A stretch of DNA of 64,000 bases, from the NCBI GenBank assembly GCA_016194305.1, contig JACQBW010000011.1:1-64000 (forward strand), read 5' to 3'. Shown one piece after another: positions 1-7,919 of this stretch (positions within the stretch are counted from its first letter, which is position 1; each line of letters starts with the position of its first letter). The notes under the pieces are model-generated. The model saw nothing but the letters and a program-made list of their open reading frames with translations. It searched no databases and was not told where the DNA came from. The stretch comes from Nitrospirota bacterium (GTDB lineage: Bacteria > Nitrospirota > Nitrospiria > JACQBW01). A program made the position numbers and the translations under genes.

Positions 1-335
1 ACATTAGAATTAAACTGCATATATTTACCGGATTCATGAATTAAGGCGAGCGTATCCCGGTATCCCGCTATTTCCTGTTCAGATCTGTTTTTAGGGGTTG
101 TGGTTTTCAAGACCAAAGCTTCAATCCGATCGTGAGGGGCGTTAATTCCCTCCAATCGATTGGAGGATTCATTGGATTCAATGATCGCAGTCTGTTTTAG
201 ACTTTCCAAAATTTCGGGGGACTGTCGAGTGTAAAGCTCCTGTTTTCCACGGCACTCTCCAATGGCGCGGAGTGTTGCCAGTTGATTGGAATCAAATGTG
301 AGCGCAATTAAATAGTTAGAATCGAGTGAATGCAT
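1..335 (-). CDS. Fic family protein, N-terminal part (cut by window edge)
   Basis: About 111 residues are readable from an ATG at 335; the rest lies beyond the left edge. Residues 58-63 read SNRLEG, which fits the Fic inhibitory-helix motif [S/T]xxxE[G/N], and the flanking sequence resembles the N-terminal domain of Fic proteins that regulate themselves in cis. Fic enzymes usually transfer AMP to target proteins; the catalytic HxFx(D/E)GNGR loop would be outside the window, so activity cannot be judged. The gene lies downstream of the type I restriction subunit R on the same strand, an arrangement often seen where a Fic gene is embedded in an hsd locus. An ATG at 340 is out of frame, which favours 335. 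Confidence 0.8.
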   Translation of the reverse strand, partial: MHSLDSNYLIALTFDSNQLATLRAIGECRGKQELYTRQSPEILESLKQTAIIESNESSNRLEGINAPHDRIEALVLKTTTPKNRSEQEIAGYRDTLALIHESGKYMQFNSN

Positions 336-354
336 ATCATTTTTCCAACAATAA

Positions 355-425
355 GGTAATTTACCATATAAATAGGGTAACATCAATATAATTTTACCCC
401 ATTTATACTCTGGTTTACCCTATTT
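355..425. promoter_or_regulatory. cluster of GGTAA/TTACC repeats upstream of the Fic gene
   Basis: The 79-bp gap between hsdR and fic is full of one motif. GGTAATTTACC at 355-365 is a palindrome. AAATAGGGTAA at 370-380 is repeated inverted as TTACCCTATTT at 415-425, overlapping the hsdR stop codon, with a further related inverted copy (TTTTACCCCATTT) near 392-404. The repeats could be operators for a shared regulator or form a stem-loop at the end of hsdR. The spacing and number fit multiple binding sites better than a terminator, because the arms are AT-rich and no T-run follows. Confidence 0.5.
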
Positions 426-3156
426 TAGACACAAACTCCAAGATTTCATCAATTTGGGTGAGCTGAAAAACACCCCGAATTCCCTGAGGATGGAAATTGG
501 TAAAAGGACGATTAATGAGATTCTCTTTTTCGACTTTCCCTTGATTGAGAATAAAGGTCTTGATGATCTGAAGAAATTCCACCTGGTTCGCGGAATAGTC
601 ATTATGATGAGCGATAAAGTCGTCAAAAGCTTGCGCAATGACTTCGGAGCGGGATTGAAGTTTTTGGATTCCTAAAATATAACGGATAAAGTCGATAAAA
701 TGAGCGTTTTTGTTATCATAGACACGTTGCAAGACCTCCTCAGTGACATACGGATCTTCACTCCTGAGAAGTTCGGCCAGGCGCGAAATATCGTAGTCAT
801 CAACCGGCTCTCCTCTTTTAAGTTTTTGCAAAACCTCATTTCCAATTAAAAGGCTATTGATTTTCTCTTCGACTTTGTGACGATACTCTAATACTGTAGC
901 TCGTTCCATTTCCGGACCGAATTCGACCCACTCTCTGACCAGAATAATATCTTCCAGATTGAGCTTTTCCATTTCGTTTATCTTTTTTTGCCGGTGTTTC
1001 ATTAAACCACGCAAACGGACACGAACCTCTTCGAGACATTCTTCAGAAAGCGCTGCCCAAAACCTTTCTTCTTTAATTTTTCTGATCGTCTCTTCTTCTG
1101 CACGAATCTGATTAAGGGTCAAAGGGAGTGCGTCTATTTTCTCGCGAATGGTCTCTTTCATCCTATTTAGAGTTTCATCATCTCTATCCAATAACGCAGT
1201 TTGGGTCACGATGATATCGATATCAAAGCGGAGGGCATCGAAATCCTCCGCAGAACGGGTCCGCATTAAGGGGAGTATATTCTTTCGGAGATTCTCGATT
1301 TCATGGAGTCCGAACCCATACCAAGCAGTCTCTTCAGCAACAACAGACAATTCCTGGGTTTTTTCTTTTACCCGAACCGTCCCTTTGGGCAGGGAGGCAA
1401 TATCCGCCCGGATCCCTGAAATGGTCTTTTCAAGTACAAGTTGGTCTCCCACCGTCAGGGCCGAAGTCGCCTTATCAAGCCGAACTCCAAAAAGCCTCTC
1501 CGGTACAGAAAGAGTGGGAGAGGGTTCTTTGCCAGGTGGATTCATTTGGAAATAGGCAAAGTTTTTCCAGTGATCGATAATGAGAAAATAAGCTTTATTC
1601 TCACCCTGGCCGAAAAGGTTTGGGCAAAGCCGCGTTCCCCTCCCTATCATTTGCCAAAACTTGGCGCGCGAGAAGACGGGCTTGGCAAAAACCAGGTTCA
1701 CCACTTCCGGAATATCGATTCCAGTATCGAGCATATCGACCGAGATGGCGACTTTTAGCGGATCCTTTGGGTCTTTAAATTGATCGATCAATCCCCCTTC
1801 TGTTCCGGCACGGGGATCATGTGAGTCAATCACTCTGGCCAGCCTCCCTTTATATTCGGGATAGAGCTGGTTAAAATGTTCTTCCAAACGCAACGCGTGC
1901 TGATGGGAAATCGCAAAGATAATTGATTTTCCTGGACGGGTCCCGGTCTCATCTTTGATGCACTGTTCCATAAACTCACGAACAATCAGTTCATTGGTGC
2001 CGGAATTGGTGACCTGTTTTTCGAGGTCTGTTCCTTCAAAATCAATATCTTCCAGGTCTTTTCCCTCTTCGATCAGCTTTTTCTGGATTTGAACCGGAAG
2101 TTGTCCCGCTTTAATCCCTTCAAGTTGAAACCGGGATTGAATTGATAACACTTTAAATGGAACCAGGTAAGGAGGAGAGTTGTTTACCGCTTCTTCAAGT
2201 GTATAGTTGAAAGTTGGATCTTCGTTAGGAGTTTCAAAAAGCTGAAAAGTGTTACGGTCGATATATTCAACGGGAGTAGCAGTGAGGCCCAACTGATAAG
2301 CATCAAAATGGTCCAGAATTTCTTTATAGCGATTATAGATACTTCGATGGGATTCATCCGCCACAACCATATCAAAATAACCTGGAGAAATCGTCGGGTA
2401 AAGGCTGTGCATTGTCGGATAGGTGGAGAGATAAACTCTTTTTTCTGGCAACGGCTCTTTTGAAGAGATACGCGCCCAGGTTGCGTTGGGAAGATGTTCC
2501 TTGAAGGCATTGCGAGCCTGTTTGAGGAGTTCATTCCGATCGGCCAGAAAAAGAATCCGTTTCACCCAATTGCATCGCATTAAAACATCGATCAATGCAA
2601 TGGCGACACGAGTTTTGCCGGTGCCAGTGGCCATCACCAGCAAAGCTTTTCGATGTCCTTGAGTGAGTGTTTCTAAAACCCTCCGGATTGCTTCAATTTG
2701 ATAGGGCCGCCCGACGATCTTTGTATCGATTAGAGTGGTTGAAAGGGGTTTACGTTCTAGATTTTGGAATCGGACCCGTTCCAGGTCGGCTTGGGTATAG
2801 AACCCATAGATCTTTCTGGGCGGGTAACGGGAATCATCCCAGAAAAAGAGGTTATTCCCGTTAGTGTAAAAAATAAAGGGACGAGGATGTCCCATTTTTT
2901 CGAGGCCATCCGCATACTGTTTAGCCTGTTCCCTCCCAATTTCAGCATCGACGGTTGACCGTTTGGCTTCGACCACTGCCAGCGGTGAACCATCCCGGGC
3001 AAAAAGGAGGTAGTCACAAAACCCGGTTTTCGACAATGAACCGAATTGATGAAGAATCGGATGTTCGGAAGTGACCAGAGCAGGATCTTTTACATTCCAT
3101 CCAGAAGCTTTTAATCGCTTGTCGATGATCTCCTGCCGGGTTTGCGCTTCGGACAT
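415..3156 (-). CDS. hsdR: Type I restriction endonuclease subunit R (EcoEI-like)
   Basis: Motor and nuclease subunit of a type I restriction system, which translocates DNA with ATP and cleaves unmodified DNA away from the recognition site. The N-terminal nuclease shows D48 and E63-A-K65 of a PD-(D/E)xK site. The superfamily 2 helicase follows: Walker A MATGTGKT at 175-182, DESH at 267-270, LTATP at 291-295 and a later GRGTR motif. The C-terminal roughly 250 residues fit the EcoEI R C-terminal domain. At 913 residues it is of normal length and intact. Neither the methylase (M) nor the specificity (S) subunit is in the window; they would be expected past the left edge, beyond fic. It lies inside the putative integrated element. 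Confidence 0.9.
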   Translation of the reverse strand: MSEAQTRQEIIDKRLKASGWNVKDPALVTSEHPILHQFGSLSKTGFCDYLLFARDGSPLAVVEAKRSTVDAEIGREQAKQYADGLEKMGHPRPFIFYTNGNNLFFWDDSRYPPRKIYGFYTQADLERVRFQNLERKPLSTTLIDTKIVGRPYQIEAIRRVLETLTQGHRKALLVMATGTGKTRVAIALIDVLMRCNWVKRILFLADRNELLKQARNAFKEHLPNATWARISSKEPLPEKRVYLSTYPTMHSLYPTISPGYFDMVVADESHRSIYNRYKEILDHFDAYQLGLTATPVEYIDRNTFQLFETPNEDPTFNYTLEEAVNNSPPYLVPFKVLSIQSRFQLEGIKAGQLPVQIQKKLIEEGKDLEDIDFEGTDLEKQVTNSGTNELIVREFMEQCIKDETGTRPGKSIIFAISHQHALRLEEHFNQLYPEYKGRLARVIDSHDPRAGTEGGLIDQFKDPKDPLKVAISVDMLDTGIDIPEVVNLVFAKPVFSRAKFWQMIGRGTRLCPNLFGQGENKAYFLIIDHWKNFAYFQMNPPGKEPSPTLSVPERLFGVRLDKATSALTVGDQLVLEKTISGIRADIASLPKGTVRVKEKTQELSVVAEETAWYGFGLHEIENLRKNILPLMRTRSAEDFDALRFDIDIIVTQTALLDRDDETLNRMKETIREKIDALPLTLNQIRAEEETIRKIKEERFWAALSEECLEEVRVRLRGLMKHRQKKINEMEKLNLEDIILVREWVEFGPEMERATVLEYRHKVEEKINSLLIGNEVLQKLKRGEPVDDYDISRLAELLRSEDPYVTEEVLQRVYDNKNAHFIDFIRYILGIQKLQSRSEVIAQAFDDFIAHHNDYSANQVEFLQIIKTFILNQGKVEKENLINRPFTNFHPQGIRGVFQLTQIDEILEFVSKIG

Positions 3157-3191
3157 CGGGCCCCTTTAAATTTACAAATAAAACTCTTTTC

Positions 3192-3220
3192 ATTATAAAT
3201 AGTTAGAACCTATTTGCAAA
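3192..3220 (-). promoter_or_regulatory. sigma70-like promoter of hsdR
   Basis: On the minus strand a -35 TTTGCA (3220-3215) is followed by a 17-bp spacer and a perfect -10 TATAAT (3197-3192), about 35 bp before the hsdR ATG at 3156. Confidence 0.55.
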
Positions 3221-3306
3221 CGGGATTTTTGTTAACGGCAGGCCTAAAGAACTCATGATTCCAGATTCAACGTTTACAGGTAACCCTGGACGGGCTCCTA
3301 GGAATT

Positions 3307-3323
3307 TCCACGCGGCGCGTGGA
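3307..3323. repeat. 17-bp GC-rich palindrome
   Basis: TCCACGCG and CGCGTGGA are exact inverted copies separated by one base, lying between the toxin-antitoxin pair and hsdR. No T-run follows, so it looks more like a protein site than a terminator. Function unknown. Confidence 0.35.
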
Positions 3324-3383
3324 GAATTTCTGTGATCTTCAACAGCAGAGGAAAAGAAAGATCAAATTGTCTCATATAAATGG

Positions 3384-3674
3384 TTACACCAATTCAAGCC
3401 GAACTTTCCGGCCGACAATGGCAGCAGCACGTGTTAACGTTGCCAAGGTCACGCTTTCATTATCTGGGTCTAACAACCGGTCAAGCTGAGCCCGGCTTGT
3501 TTCCATGCGGCGTGCCATTTCTATTTTTGTAATTTTCCGTTGCTTCATGGCTTGTTCAAGTTGCCATGCCAAGACACGCTTGATTGCCGTAGCCTGCACT
3601 TCCTCGTAAATACCCTCTTCTTTGAGAAAATCATCGAACAAGCTACCGATATGTTTTTTCCCCTTCATGGTCAT
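3384..3674 (-). CDS. HigA-type antitoxin, XRE helix-turn-helix protein
   Basis: A 96-residue protein with a Cro/C1-type helix-turn-helix around residues 45-75 (KITKIEMARRMETSRAQLDR) and no other domain. It follows the toxin gene by 9 bp, with the Shine-Dalgarno AAAAGGAG just before the ATG. In HigBA modules the toxin gene comes first and the antitoxin binds both the toxin and the operon promoter, which matches this order. It would neutralise the RelE-like product of 3684-4031 and repress its own operon. The module lies in the integrated element and may stabilise it. Confidence 0.75.
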   Translation of the reverse strand: MTMKGKKHIGSLFDDFLKEEGIYEEVQATAIKRVLAWQLEQAMKQRKITKIEMARRMETSRAQLDRLLDPDNESVTLATLTRAAAIVGRKVRLELV

Positions 3675-3683
3675 ATACTCCTT

Positions 3684-4031
3684 TTATTGCTCTATTTCTC
3701 TCTGCCGTTGTCGCGCCAAAGCGAGAACATCCGGTGGAGTCTTTTGGGTCTTTTTTATAAATCCATGTAACAACATCATTCGACCAGTGTGAAGGGAGAA
3801 AACCACTCGCGCAATCCGTCGGCCTGTCAGATTGCTACGCACCTCCCACAGGCCATCACCCAAAGGGCGACAGGTTGGCATTCCAACGGGCCACCCATAT
3901 TCAACAGTCGCTATGTCGTTTCCGATGATCCGTCGATCATTTCTCGGCAACTCTTTGAGCCACTCACGTACTGGTTCTTTGCCGTGTGCATTCCGGTAAA
4001 AGGTGGCATAAATCTTTTTAATCGGAACCAA
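3684..4031 (-). CDS. HigB/Gp49-like RelE/ParE toxin
   Basis: A 115-residue protein with the layout of phage-derived Gp49-like HigB toxins: an N-terminal strand KKIYATFYRNAHGKEPVREWL, then a helix, then EVRSNLTGRRIARVVFSL and a C-terminal LLHGFIKKTQKTPPDVLALAR. The last block (HGFxKKxxKTPxxEI) is typical of the family, whose members are usually ribosome-dependent mRNA nucleases. The start is a TTG with a GAAAGG Shine-Dalgarno 7 nt upstream; no ATG suits. It precedes the antitoxin gene by 9 bp, so they form one operon. Confidence 0.75.
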   Translation of the reverse strand: MVPIKKIYATFYRNAHGKEPVREWLKELPRNDRRIIGNDIATVEYGWPVGMPTCRPLGDGLWEVRSNLTGRRIARVVFSLHTGRMMLLHGFIKKTQKTPPDVLALARQRQREIEQ

Positions 4032-4068
4032 GCCAATACCTTTCTCAAAGGGATAAAATAATTATGTA

Positions 4069-4218
4069 TCAAAAAAGATACTTTGTCAAGTTGATTAGAT
4101 ACCGGGCAATAGTTGCATTGACTTCTTCCGCAAACGTCAACCCTAGTCCCCGCTGGCATTGCTCATAATACTCCACCACCCATTGCAACACTGCCTTGGC
4201 CTCATCGAGTGAAAAGTC
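4069..4218 (-). pseudogene. Remnant of a ParE-type toxin
   Basis: Read on the minus strand from 4218 the frame gives DFSLDEAKAVLQWVVEYYEQ followed by CQRGLGLTFAEEVNATIARY, then stops at 4069. This is the helical hairpin of ParE/RelE toxins (EAVEYYExxxPGLGxxFxxEVxxTIxRI). A TAG stop sits directly before the recognisable part, and the C-terminal beta sheet that carries toxin function is missing. Between this and 4391 I see only a short ORF starting at 4304 (24 codons, MKHPAFKTLL...), which may be the end of a lost partner gene. Confidence 0.55.
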
Positions 4219-4320
4219 CTATCGCTCATTTATTTGCTTAACAGCCACTTCGGATCGGTGAAGGAAAGTTTTTTAAGAAGAGTTTTGAAAGCCGGATGTT
4301 TCATATCATTACTTTACCAA

Positions 4321-4349
4321 AAGTACCCACTTTTATAAACTGGGTACTT
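4321..4349. promoter_or_regulatory. 9-bp inverted repeat, possible TA operator
   Basis: AAGTACCCA (4321-4329) and TGGGTACTT (4341-4349) are exact inverted copies 11 bp apart. They lie just upstream of the decayed toxin region and downstream of the 4392-4910 gene. The spacing suits a dimeric repressor; a weak hairpin after the upstream gene is the alternative. Confidence 0.4.
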
Positions 4350-4391
4350 ATTGAAAAGTAGGATTATTTTATAGAACCATGCTGTAAAATA

Positions 4392-4910
4392 TTAATGCAA
4401 ACTAGATATCACTTCCCTCAGCCTTTCTATGGGATAAAAAGCATTTTTCGTGGCACTCATAGGTGTTCGGTTAATTTCGGCATTCATCTCCATCAACTGC
4501 TGTCCCTCGGCTCCTTGGGCTTGAAGGATACGGAACTCGTACTGCTTGGCGAAATCAATCATAAAACCAAGAACTTTTCTGTTCTGAGTTTTTGTAAACC
4601 CAATCTCTTGATACTCCTGCACAAGTTGGTTTATTAGCTCGGAACGAAAGCCCTCGTGTTGAAGATTGTCTGACAGATGATCGAGGAACAGATTCTTGAT
4701 GTTTCTCAGATCTTTCTTGAGAATTCCCGGCACCAGAAACGTATAGAGGGTTTCCTCGTTTGTAAAGAGAAGATGTTTCTTTCTCTCAAACCTGAGCAAA
4801 TTAGCATACCAGTTTCCGAGACCTTCGGTTGTGGGTGGAACATGACATGGTTCAGTAACAGGGCATTCAAGCGCTTTAAGAAGGTTCAAGGTGCAGTGCA
4901 TCCATCTCAT
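4392..4910 (-). CDS. DUF6933-like hypothetical protein
   Basis: A 172-residue cytoplasmic protein with no membrane segment. The opening MHCTLNLLKAL, followed by LGNWYANLLRFERKKHLLFTNEETLYTFLVPGI, fits my recollection of the DUF6933 family, whose function is unknown. The ATG at 4910 has AAAGG 9 nt upstream; the ATG at 4901 (residue 4) would give a start closer to the family norm. It is divergent from the DNA-binding gene at 5070. No role can be assigned from context beyond being cargo of the element. Confidence 0.55.
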   Translation of the reverse strand: MRWMHCTLNLLKALECPVTEPCHVPPTTEGLGNWYANLLRFERKKHLLFTNEETLYTFLVPGILKKDLRNIKNLFLDHLSDNLQHEGFRSELINQLVQEYQEIGFTKTQNRKVLGFMIDFAKQYEFRILQAQGAEGQQLMEMNAEINRTPMSATKNAFYPIERLREVISSLH

Positions 4911-5069
4911 GCCGTCAACCTTTGAAAGATTTTCCCTAATTGAGGATTTTTCCTGTCTTTTAAAAATGTGCCGGCTTCTGATATCTTGATTACCAACTCC
5001 GATTCTCGGTAGTTTTTGAGATCGCTATATTTTAATACAAGGTTGATACAAACTAAAGGACAGATAAAA

Positions 5070-5840
5070 ATGATGCCAACCATTCAGATAAGCCAGTCCA
5101 AGATTGATCGTATTATCCGTCCTATTTTGGGTCAATACTATGGGTCAGAAGATTCTTATCAGGATGTCCATGTAAAAATTCTCGAGCTTAGTCCTCAATC
5201 AGAAGAAGAGATCAAAGCAATTGCCTTAGAAGTCAAAAAGAAACATATAAGAGATTTTCTACATAAAAAGTTCTCGGAAAAAAGCCTCTATGAGCCTATC
5301 GAATCTCAAGGAGATGAAAAATTTACTTTCGAAAGCATACTGGCTGATAAAGAAACGGAGGTAGAACCAGAATCCCTTAGCATGGAGCCTGCTGCAAAAT
5401 CAATTTTAAATTTCCTTATAAAAGAAATGGTCGATGGTAAATCATTGAACTGGTCCATTCTCTCGTTATTGAGAAAATCGTCAGAATTACTCAAACGACA
5501 TCATCGCAGATGGGAAAAATGGGAAGAGGACATTCTACGAGAAAATTATATCCGCGGAGGCAGTTTGGCAGTTGCATTGTTTTTGAACAGAACTGTAAAT
5601 GCCATCACTTCAAGAGTGTTTTATTTAGGAATAAGAAGGTATCCGCAACAATTCCAAATCACTAAAGAATATTCAAACGTTCAAGGGGAAAATGTTATTA
5701 AGAGAGAACAGTTAAAGAAACGTTCCACTAGAAATAGTGACCACAAGCGGCTTGAAAGTCTACGTGTAAAAAAAGAAAAGCTCCGTTTAGAAGAAAAAGA
5801 AGGATTAAAAAGGAAACGAAAACTGAAACATACTCGGTAA
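5070..5840 (+). CDS. Sigma-like / Myb-like DNA-binding protein
   Basis: About 256 residues from ATG 5070, which has AAAGGA 8 nt upstream; a TTG at 5016 in frame lacks a ribosome site. The first 70 residues (SEDSYQDVHVKIL ... IRDFLHKK) resemble a short sigma-70 region 2: acidic start, aromatic-rich helix, basic end. A tryptophan-containing helix-turn-helix follows (RRWEKWEEDILRENY ... LNRTVNAITSRVFYLGIRR), like Myb/SANT or GcrA-type domains that read out pairs of helices. The C-terminal 60 residues are Lys/Arg/Glu-rich and probably a basic coiled coil. No family is recognised with confidence. It may be the element's own transcription factor. The gene becomes very purine-rich toward its 3' end. 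Confidence 0.5.
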   Translation: MMPTIQISQSKIDRIIRPILGQYYGSEDSYQDVHVKILELSPQSEEEIKAIALEVKKKHIRDFLHKKFSEKSLYEPIESQGDEKFTFESILADKETEVEPESLSMEPAAKSILNFLIKEMVDGKSLNWSILSLLRKSSELLKRHHRRWEKWEEDILRENYIRGGSLAVALFLNRTVNAITSRVFYLGIRRYPQQFQITKEYSNVQGENVIKREQLKKRSTRNSDHKRLESLRVKKEKLRLEEKEGLKRKRKLKHTR

Positions 5841-5869
5841 ATGTTAAAAGCAAAAACTTCCGAGCAACT

Positions 5870-6040
5870 ATCCGGAAAAAAGATTGGAAAAGGAAATGGA
5901 AATCGGAAAGGAAGTCGCAATGCCACCTTCCGAAAGGAAAATCGGAAAAGGCTTTCAATTGAAATTTCCGGAAAGAGGAAAGTGGAAAACACCGCTACGG
6001 GAAAAGCTGGAAATGGAAATGAAAAGAGGAATCGTATTTC
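5870..6040 (+). repeat. purine-rich GGAAA-repeat tract in a gene-poor gap
   Basis: The plus strand between the DNA-binding gene and the replication-relaxation-like gene (5841-6393) is dominated by imperfect repeats of CGGAAA/GGAAAT/GGAAAGG. Two overlapping short frames (5841-6047 and 5884-6096) translate to Lys/Gly/Glu/Arg-rich low-complexity peptides and show no family; I do not call them genes. From 6100 to 6393 I see nothing. Confidence 0.5.
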
Positions 6041-6393
6041 CGCTTGATGATTCCCTTTTGTATCGGTCCTGTGGAGTGAAGGTGAAATATGGATAATATT
6101 CATTTTGAAAATACCCGAAAAACAGGAGAAAGATCTTCTATTATATGTCGGCAAAAAAGACTTCATTTAAACCCTTAAAACATTTACGCTTTTTCCTTTT
6201 TATGATTTTCGGAATTCAATAGCCTCTTCAATAGATCATTCAATAGAACTTTCAACGTCTGTTTCTGGGTTGAACTGCCCCCGGTTATTTGAGGAAAAAG
6301 TCGACTGTTAATTATTTAACCGGAAGAATAAAAGATGGGCTTGCAACGGGGTGAGACAAATTGACAAGGACTATGTCATCTCTGTTATCGAAG

Positions 6394-7170
6394 TTATTTT
6401 GGTGGGGCTTCAAAACTCAATTGAACGACCTGTCCTGTAGCAAAGGATAGCCAGTTTGAATCTGTTAACCCTCCTTTCAAAACCTCTTCAATATGGGAAA
6501 AGTAAATTCTCTTGGGCTTTCTTAATGTCTGAGCCGTATACTTTCGAAGGGAATCAATTCGCTCTTTTTGCGAGGTGATCACAAACAGAGTGCTATCTTC
6601 AGGCAAAGAGGAGAGCTTTTTCACAAATCTGCTCCGGATCAGGTTTAGCCCGTCCATTTCAATTAAAAGATCTTTACGGCCGGTCTGGCTTTGAATCTTT
6701 AATTCCAGGTCAGCATAATGGGTGCCTTTTACATGAAATTGATTCTTCATCTTCATCTGACCATCATCCAGGATAGACAATATTTCGTACCTCTTTGTCT
6801 CCCTTTCTTCCCGAAAAATTCTTCGAATGATCAGGGTCAACCAATACTCGTGTTGGAACAGGTGATCCGGAGGAACTTGAATCTTTAAATATATCGGATC
6901 ATACCCGTGACTCAATAATATTGAAGCTCCCACAGGCGTTAAAAAGCAGAAAAGTTTAGAGGGCATGAAGGGGTAGTAAACCTTCCTGATTATTTTTCTT
7001 CTCGCCATAGTGCCAAGCTTGGCGTAAATCTGCTGGAAATGGAGAGAACGCCGCCCGGTATCGAGACCCCGATAAAACTCAAAGGCTTCTTTAATTGTAC
7101 TTGGACCGAAGGAGAGATGCCGGAGCCATTCGAGGTCTCTCTGTTTGAATCCTGAATACACAAGCGTCAT
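6394..7170 (-). CDS. Replication-relaxation-like protein
   Basis: A 258-residue protein. Residues 1-75 form a probable winged helix (DLEWLRHLSFGPSTIKEAFEF ... SLHFQQIYAKLGTMARRKIIRK), and LFCFLTPVGASILLSHGYDP is the kind of wing-and-linker seen in the replication-relaxation family of plasmids and integrative elements. The C-terminal half (YADLELKIQ ... DLLIEMDG ... LFVITSQKERIDSLRKY) looks like a nuclease-fold domain, with an E-x-D in the place where these proteins carry acidic residues. Family members are encoded on conjugative and mobilisable elements. The gene lies 200 bp from the tRNA-fragment junction. Assignment is by pattern and moderate. Confidence 0.45.
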   Translation of the reverse strand: MTLVYSGFKQRDLEWLRHLSFGPSTIKEAFEFYRGLDTGRRSLHFQQIYAKLGTMARRKIIRKVYYPFMPSKLFCFLTPVGASILLSHGYDPIYLKIQVPPDHLFQHEYWLTLIIRRIFREERETKRYEILSILDDGQMKMKNQFHVKGTHYADLELKIQSQTGRKDLLIEMDGLNLIRSRFVKKLSSLPEDSTLFVITSQKERIDSLRKYTAQTLRKPKRIYFSHIEEVLKGGLTDSNWLSFATGQVVQLSFEAPPK

Positions 7171-7235
7171 AGAAATTTTTCCTAATTAAAATGCCAGTTC
7201 CGATATGTTTTCTCTTTCAAATATATCCCAGTCAG

Positions 7236-7255
7236 GTATGACCAAAGTATGACCA
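7236..7255. repeat. two direct copies of GTATGACCA near the element end
   Basis: GTATGACCA occurs at 7236-7244 and 7247-7255, 11 bp apart (one helical turn), about 125 bp inside the tRNA-fragment junction. Directly repeated 9-mers in helical phase near an attachment site could be integrase arm-type or excisionase sites. The gap 7171-7379 holds no gene. Confidence 0.35.
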
Positions 7256-7379
7256 GACCCCTGGTTATCCACAGAATTGGTGGTAACAGAAAGAAACGTC
7301 TGGAAATCTTTAACTGATTGATTTATATTATGAAAACTAATTCCAGTTAGAAATCAGGCCCTTGTGAAAAATGGTTAAA

Positions 7380-7426
7380 TTGCTTTCACACGGCAGAGGT
7401 CGCAGGTTCGAGACCTGCATCGCCTA
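7380..7426 (+). mobile_element. tRNA-Val(CAC) 3' fragment: attachment-site scar of an integrated element
   Basis: The sequence folds as the 3' half of a tRNA. The anticodon stem TTGCT/GGCAG closes a 7-nt loop TTCACAC with anticodon CAC at 7387-7389. The short variable loop AGGTC is next, then a T-arm GCAGG-TTCGAGA-CCTGC at 7402-7418, the acceptor 3' strand ATCGCCT and discriminator A at 7426. No D-arm or matching 5' acceptor strand (AGGCGAT) is upstream. Elements that insert into tRNA 3' ends leave exactly such a fragment at their far end, so the intact tRNA-Val and probably the integrase should lie left of the window. This marks the right border of the island. Confidence 0.75.
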
Positions 7427-7919
7427 TATCTTTTCAATCTCGGAGCCCGAAAGATCCCATTCCTGAAAATTCCTGTCGCTCTCAAAACCATCCGTAATCG
7501 CTTCCTTAACAGGGTTCAAGGCCTGATTGCATTTCCCTCCCGATAACTATTTTCTCTTCACTTTCTACTCTGTCAAACCTTTCTATCTCTGATCACTGTC
7601 CAAAATAAACAGTTAGTTCGTTGCAGTGTCCAGACAGATAGACGAACTGGAACGCACCCAAATTTCAATGAAAATCACACGTTTCGAAATAGTCAAGTCA
7701 AATAGATTAGACAATTCGTCTAAAATAAGCACGGCGCTCCAACCCAATGTCTTCAGATTTAACCTCGTAATAGATTGTTTTTATAAGATAAAATTCGTTC
7801 TTGCCAGGTCATCGTTTTGGCCAAAATTCATTGGTACAGGAATTGCTATTTTATCTTAATACCAGGAAGAGAAAGATGACCCATTAAATAGAAAGTGGGC
7901 TGACTGGGATAATAAGATA
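7427..7919. other. gap without a convincing gene
   Basis: Between the tRNA scar and the zinc-ribbon gene I see no gene. Short open frames lack family features and ribosome sites. Confidence 0.5.

Follow-up and report, generated by a model that had tools for sequence, protein, structure and literature searches.

What does the isolated 3′ part of a tRNA-Val(CAC) gene mark when it lies a few kilobases from the end of a contig in a Nitrospirota genome? The window analyzed here, bases 1–64000 of a 131,492-base contig (C11) of an assembly of 37 contigs and 2.27 Mb, contains such a fragment, and the left edge of the window is the contig end. A reading made earlier from the sequence alone had taken the fragment for the right border of an integrated element. 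It had placed an intact tRNA-Val(CAC) gene that repeats the fragment, with a tyrosine integrase beside it, beyond the left edge. Our results fit this proposal: the fragment very probably marks attR of a genomic island, which a lambda-type tyrosine integrase would have inserted into tRNA-Val(CAC) at the anticodon-loop region. The features on which this rests are collected in Table 1.

The fragment repeats an intact tRNA gene on a second contig

The fragment (TTGCTTTCACACGGCAGAGGTCGCAGGTTCGAGACCTGCATCGCCTA) comprises an anticodon stem-loop with CAC at positions 34–36, the T-arm, the acceptor 3′ strand and the discriminator. ARAGORN called no tRNA in the 64-kb window, and the fragment is not a gene. 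The Rfam tRNA model scored it at 27.9 bits, below the cut-off of 29, with several positions of the 5′ half unpaired. A search of the whole genome for the tRNA 3′ pattern returned exactly two places, namely the fragment itself and C37:88131. At the latter, a complete tRNA-Val(CAC) gene (C37:88099–88170, plus strand) directly follows pyrE, and 45 of the 47 bases of the fragment are identical to it, confirming that the window holds the 3′ part without the 5′ half.

The proposed repeat of 47 nucleotides is thus present, but exact identity covers 43 bases only, with mismatches at bases 7380 and 7384. Window bases 7385–7427 are identical to C37:88129–88171, a match for which the chance expectation is about 6e-15. 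The identical block ends one base beyond the tRNA, and to its left the two sequences diverge immediately. As judged from the alignment, such a sharp-edged block of 43 bases is the pattern that strand exchange in the anticodon-loop region would leave.

Table 1 Features of the right end of the putative element and of the complete element used for comparison (positions in the window unless a locus is named).
Feature	Position	Strand	Remarks
Assembled right part of the putative integrated element	1..7384		contig starts inside the element
HsdR, type I restriction subunit, 913 aa	415..3156	-	Pfam ResIII 5.9e-39, EcoEI_R_C 4.2e-26; PADLOC REase_I 8e-200
HTH antitoxin of HigBA-like pair	3384..3674	-	Pfam HTH_26 3.2e-6
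Gp49/HigB-like toxin	3684..4031	-	Pfam PF05973 1.2e-18
DUF6933 protein	4392..4910	-	Pfam 2.4e-42; PADLOC candidate PDC-S63, 7e-19
258-aa protein without assigned family	6394..7170	-	adjoins attR; Pfam: no match, E up to 1
24-base repeat TCAGGTATGACCAAAGTATGACCA, predicted pair of arm-type integrase sites	7232..7255	+	GTATGACCA at 7236 and 7247; second copy C37:88216-88239
Second IHF-like site, TAACTGATTGATT on the plus strand	7311..7323	-	matches reversed WATCARNNNNTTR; 41 bases from the first
19-base conserved motif AAATCAGGCCCTTGTGAAA	7351..7369	+	36 bases left of CACACGG; kept with its spacing in G035, G029, G083 and G001:C79
IHF consensus match AATCAGGCCCTTG	7352-7364		within the 19-base motif
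tRNA-Val(CAC) 3′ fragment, anticodon arm to discriminator	7380..7426	+	probable displaced end of the split gene
43-base exact direct repeat with the intact tRNA	7385..7427	+	probable attR core (identity block); starts in the anticodon loop
Intact tRNA-Glu(CTC) of the G083 element	L107 1763-1840		
Integrase of the G083 element	L107 1847-3007	-	

The integrase-side end and the predicted attachment sites

The intact tRNA and the fragment are both on the plus strand of their respective contigs, 148 bases and 7.4 kb from the contig ends. C37 stops at 88318, and the minus strand of the 148 bases past the tRNA encodes GHKDMRMTQRYAHHTVESLRHGVDVLGHTLVIPEGTRAGADRVSA followed by a stop codon. This is a tyrosine-integrase C-terminus that the end of the contig truncates, so that the proposed integrase is indeed found beside the intact tRNA. 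Over its first 26 residues, it shares 69% identity with integrases located at tRNA-Val(CAC) in Nitrospirota bacterium OFTM336 (G035) and OFTM308 (G029), which belong to the same class as the window genome. The integrase-side sequence on C37 reads TTGATTTCTCAAGC. The body of the integrase was found on no other contig, as the two PF00589 matches in the genome sit well inside other contigs, and HsdM, which the HsdR of the window would be expected to have as its partner, is absent from the assembly. The simplest reading of both gaps is that the middle of the element was left unassembled or unbinned. Since the integrase body and HsdM are absent from the assembly and no contig or read bridges C37 and C11, the length of the element and the join between the two contigs are inferred.

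The two ends share more than the tRNA sequence. When window bases 1–7384 were compared with the genome, the sole non-self match was the 24-base repeat on C37, which contains a 9-base sequence twice, 11 bases apart. On C37 this predicted arm pair starts 49 bases past the tRNA, within the 3′ end of the integrase gene; in the window it starts 151 bases left of the CACACGG of the fragment, with copies at 151 and 140 bases before the core. Allowing at most one mismatch, a search of 267 class genomes for an arm 20-mer found four places, all near tRNA-Val ends: in the window, on C37, and once each at the intact tRNA-Val of G001 and of G002. The shared repeat ties the ends on C37 and C11 together, and they are probably the two ends of one element. 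With the intact tRNA and the integrase C-terminus, it also supports the fragment as a right border.

Between the arm pair and the core lie two putative IHF sites in opposite orientation, which match the consensus WATCARNNNNTTR (PMC3897727). Both IHF alpha and IHF beta are encoded in the genome, with scores above the curated cut-offs, and IHF and the integrase would be expected to bind at the predicted IHF and arm sites, respectively. We also observed a DnaA box (TTATCCACA) at window bases 7265–7273, in the right arm of the element. It is the only perfect one in the 64-kb window and is part of a 14-base block (TTATCCACAGAATT) that also occurs at the aligned position in the tRNA-Glu element of G001 (L108).

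The right-end layout recurs in relatives

G035 and G029 carry tRNA-Val fragments as well, and both use tRNA-Val(CAC). In both, the core is preceded by a tandem TTGTGATA pair that starts 151–152 bases to its left, and by the 19-mer AAATCAAGCCCTTGTGAAA, or a variant close to it, that starts 36 bases to its left, as in the window. A search of 270 genomes with the 19-mer and a fixed spacer gave five sites, those in the window, G035, G029, G083 and contig C79 of G001. All five have a tandem repeat with 11-base spacing about 115–118 bases left of the 19-mer; four of the five have the IHF consensus inside the 19-mer, and four of the five a second, reversed IHF-like site 41–42 bases away. The right ends in G083 and G001:C79 finish in tRNA-Glu fragments, and the layout is therefore independent of which tRNA is hit.

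The one-contig genome of G083 provided a positive control, in the form of a complete element of about 12.9 kb (L107, G083:C1:3304000-3323000). Behind its intact tRNA-Glu(CTC) and integrase (Table 1) follow an HTH_17 excisionase-like gene, a Rep_trans gene, a transposase, and type III methylase and restriction genes, and its right end consists of the arm pair, the 19-mer and a tRNA-Glu 3′ fragment from 14707. This is the arrangement that we infer for the window element. Homologous integrase loci were located directly at a tRNA 3′ end in 26 of the 30 examined, the tRNAs being Val(CAC), Lys(CTT), Thr(CGT), Arg and Ala. In viral contigs, neither the att sequence nor the arm repeat nor the right-end pattern was matched.

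Two of the related loci have further features of their own. On G035:C65 (L051 10058-15995), the integrase at tRNA-Val(CAC) is followed by Zot-family and filamentous-phage-like genes, an inovirus-type prophage, and on G001:C79 (L108 1478-7658) a Wadjet-like cluster of JetD, a JetC-like gene and two further genes lies directly right of the tRNA-Glu fragment.

A far-reaching reading, which we regard as speculative and rather improbable, is that of a tRNA-targeting family spanning the Nitrospirota class. Such a family would keep a rigid attP (tandem arms, two opposed IHF sites 41–42 bases apart and an anticodon-loop core) across different tRNAs. In the bacterial family of the window genome, a DnaA box in the same arm would in addition link recombination to replication control.

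Cargo of the assembled right part

Of the mobile-type cargo that the sequence-only reading had described left of the fragment, the restriction subunit (HsdR) and the toxin-antitoxin pair (HigBA-like) were upheld, but its other two labels were not. The gene labelled Fic encodes a DUF6933 protein according to Pfam, and the replication-relaxation label for the gene next to attR found no family support at E values up to 1. Homologues of the 258-aa product of the latter gene were found neither in the 270 genomes of the class nor among genome_contigs and plasmids, and its structure model, with a pLDDT of 38, was too poor for use. A 274-aa protein encoded at window bases 5016–5840 (plus strand) appeared sigma-factor-like in its N-terminal half when read by eye, and gave weak PHROG matches (E values of 0.003 and 0.034). 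Two cargo proteins left of the fragment are without a firm family.

No phage structural, conjugation or relaxase genes were seen in the assembled 7.4 kb of the right end and the 148 bases of the left end. The element is presumably mobile. The GC content is 0.42 left of the fragment versus 0.45 right of it, a difference that proves nothing alone.

The right flank and alternative explanations

To the right of the fragment lie genes for an Hsp20 protein, a universal stress protein and a beta-CASP protein. Further right follow genes that, from reading their sequences, we take to be gyrA, gyrB, dnaN, dnaA, mnmE, mnmG and parAB. On this reading, the right flank is an origin-proximal chromosomal region.

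In the relatives G001 (C91, L050) and G002 (C9, L049), which belong to the same family, tRNA-Val(CAC) is directly followed by a truncated integrase 3′ end with the arm pair, and then by a GNAT-containing, TacAT-like toxin-antitoxin pair, the other member of which we assigned to DUF1778 from its sequence by eye. These are elements at the same tRNA that have been worn down or replaced, and for this reason neither genome serves as a clean empty site. The homologues of the right flank in G002 are on contigs other than the tRNA-Val contig. The tRNA-Val loci of G017, G033, G035, G038 and G029 have a conserved left flank and dissimilar right flanks, so that these five loci yield no clean occupied/empty pair.

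Just right of the fragment, the sequence TATCTTTTCAAT is similar to what relatives have at their integrase-side ends, e.g. ATCTTTTCAATGACTTACG. At window bases 7427–7438, the DNA there opens in the way that relatives do at their integrase-side end, TCTTTTCAAT. A fuller match to the integrase-side end, TTTTCAAAAACTTAC (L053 3562-3590), comes after the fragment of G035 and suggests that elements are stacked in one tRNA; older elements may underlie some of these tRNA sites.

Such stacking bears on the window itself. The integrase on C37 could come from one element and the fragment in the window could end a sibling element in the same tRNA, with a fragment between the two, or the DNA just right of the fragment could be the worn end of an older element. 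The resemblance just described, and the fuller match in G035, would be accounted for in this way, and an 11-mer within the resembling bases has, by window counts, a probability of about 2e-4 of falling there by chance, although it was noticed afterwards. A tandem array is nevertheless unlikely, as both the tRNA 3′ sequence and the arm repeat occur in only two copies in the genome assembly, homology searches with the integrase gave no integrase remnant right of the fragment, and the match there is short. A very improbable alternative is that the assembly is chimeric here, or that a tRNA pseudogene has decayed in place and there is no element at all: the 5′ half is missing and each of the two contigs stops inside the putative element or close to it, but the edge of identity is sharp and not decayed, the adjoining arm and IHF-like sites match four other elements at fixed spacing, and the shared arm repeat argues strongly against a simple pseudogene.

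Proposed course of integration

For a single island in tRNA-Val(CAC), the favored explanation, integration would have split the gene in its anticodon-loop region. The element's own 3′ half would have rebuilt a complete tRNA at the left end, on C37, with the integrase gene convergent with the restored tRNA, and the original 3′ half would have been displaced to the right end, in the window. During recombination, the integrase may grip the arms at the tandem 9-base pair past the restored tRNA and at the matching pair before the displaced core, and IHF may bend the DNA at the two sites between the right arm pair and the core. The putative island carries cargo for defence and stabilisation, consisting of the type I restriction subunit, the HigBA-like pair and a candidate defence gene.

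Comparison with known systems

At this locus, in a genome of the Nitrospirota class, the border of a mobile element is fixed to within a few bases, and tRNA-Val(CAC) is seen to be a recurrent insertion site in the class. In fragmented genomes, the conserved att layout can serve to find where elements have their far ends, as it did here with the tRNA-Glu elements in G083 and G001. Existing knowledge of how such elements work is unchanged. The structure itself is of an ordinary, known kind, namely a genomic island integrated in a tRNA gene and bearing an att site of the lambda type, and the recombination sites around the insertion are unusually clear.

In the Islander survey, the regenerated tRNA gene marks one end of an island and the displaced 3′ fragment the other; such fragments were present in 3760 of 3919 islands, and sites centred on the anticodon in 2083, about half (PMC4383910). 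The window element resembles these islands in its intact tDNA and cognate fragment in consistent orientation, in the tyrosine integrase at the tRNA end and in the anticodon-loop crossover, and differs from them in that its interval from tRNA to fragment is unassembled and its integrase is known from the C-terminus only. The defining anatomy of lambda att sites is that of arm-type sites, core sites and IHF sites between them (PMC4880445). Like the lambda attP intasome, the window element combines a core with distant arm-type sites in both arms and IHF sites between; unlike it, its arm and core sequences and its target are different, its sites are predicted from sequence patterns, and the body of its integrase is missing.

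Among the relatives, the G083 element has the same right-end layout, restriction cargo and the full order of tRNA, integrase, cargo and fragment, but targets tRNA-Glu and carries type III genes, and the G001:C79 element likewise shares the right-end layout but has tRNA-Glu as its target. G035 and G029 share with the window element both the layout and tRNA-Val(CAC), with the difference that the integrase-side contig of G035 bears filamentous-phage-like genes that include Zot.
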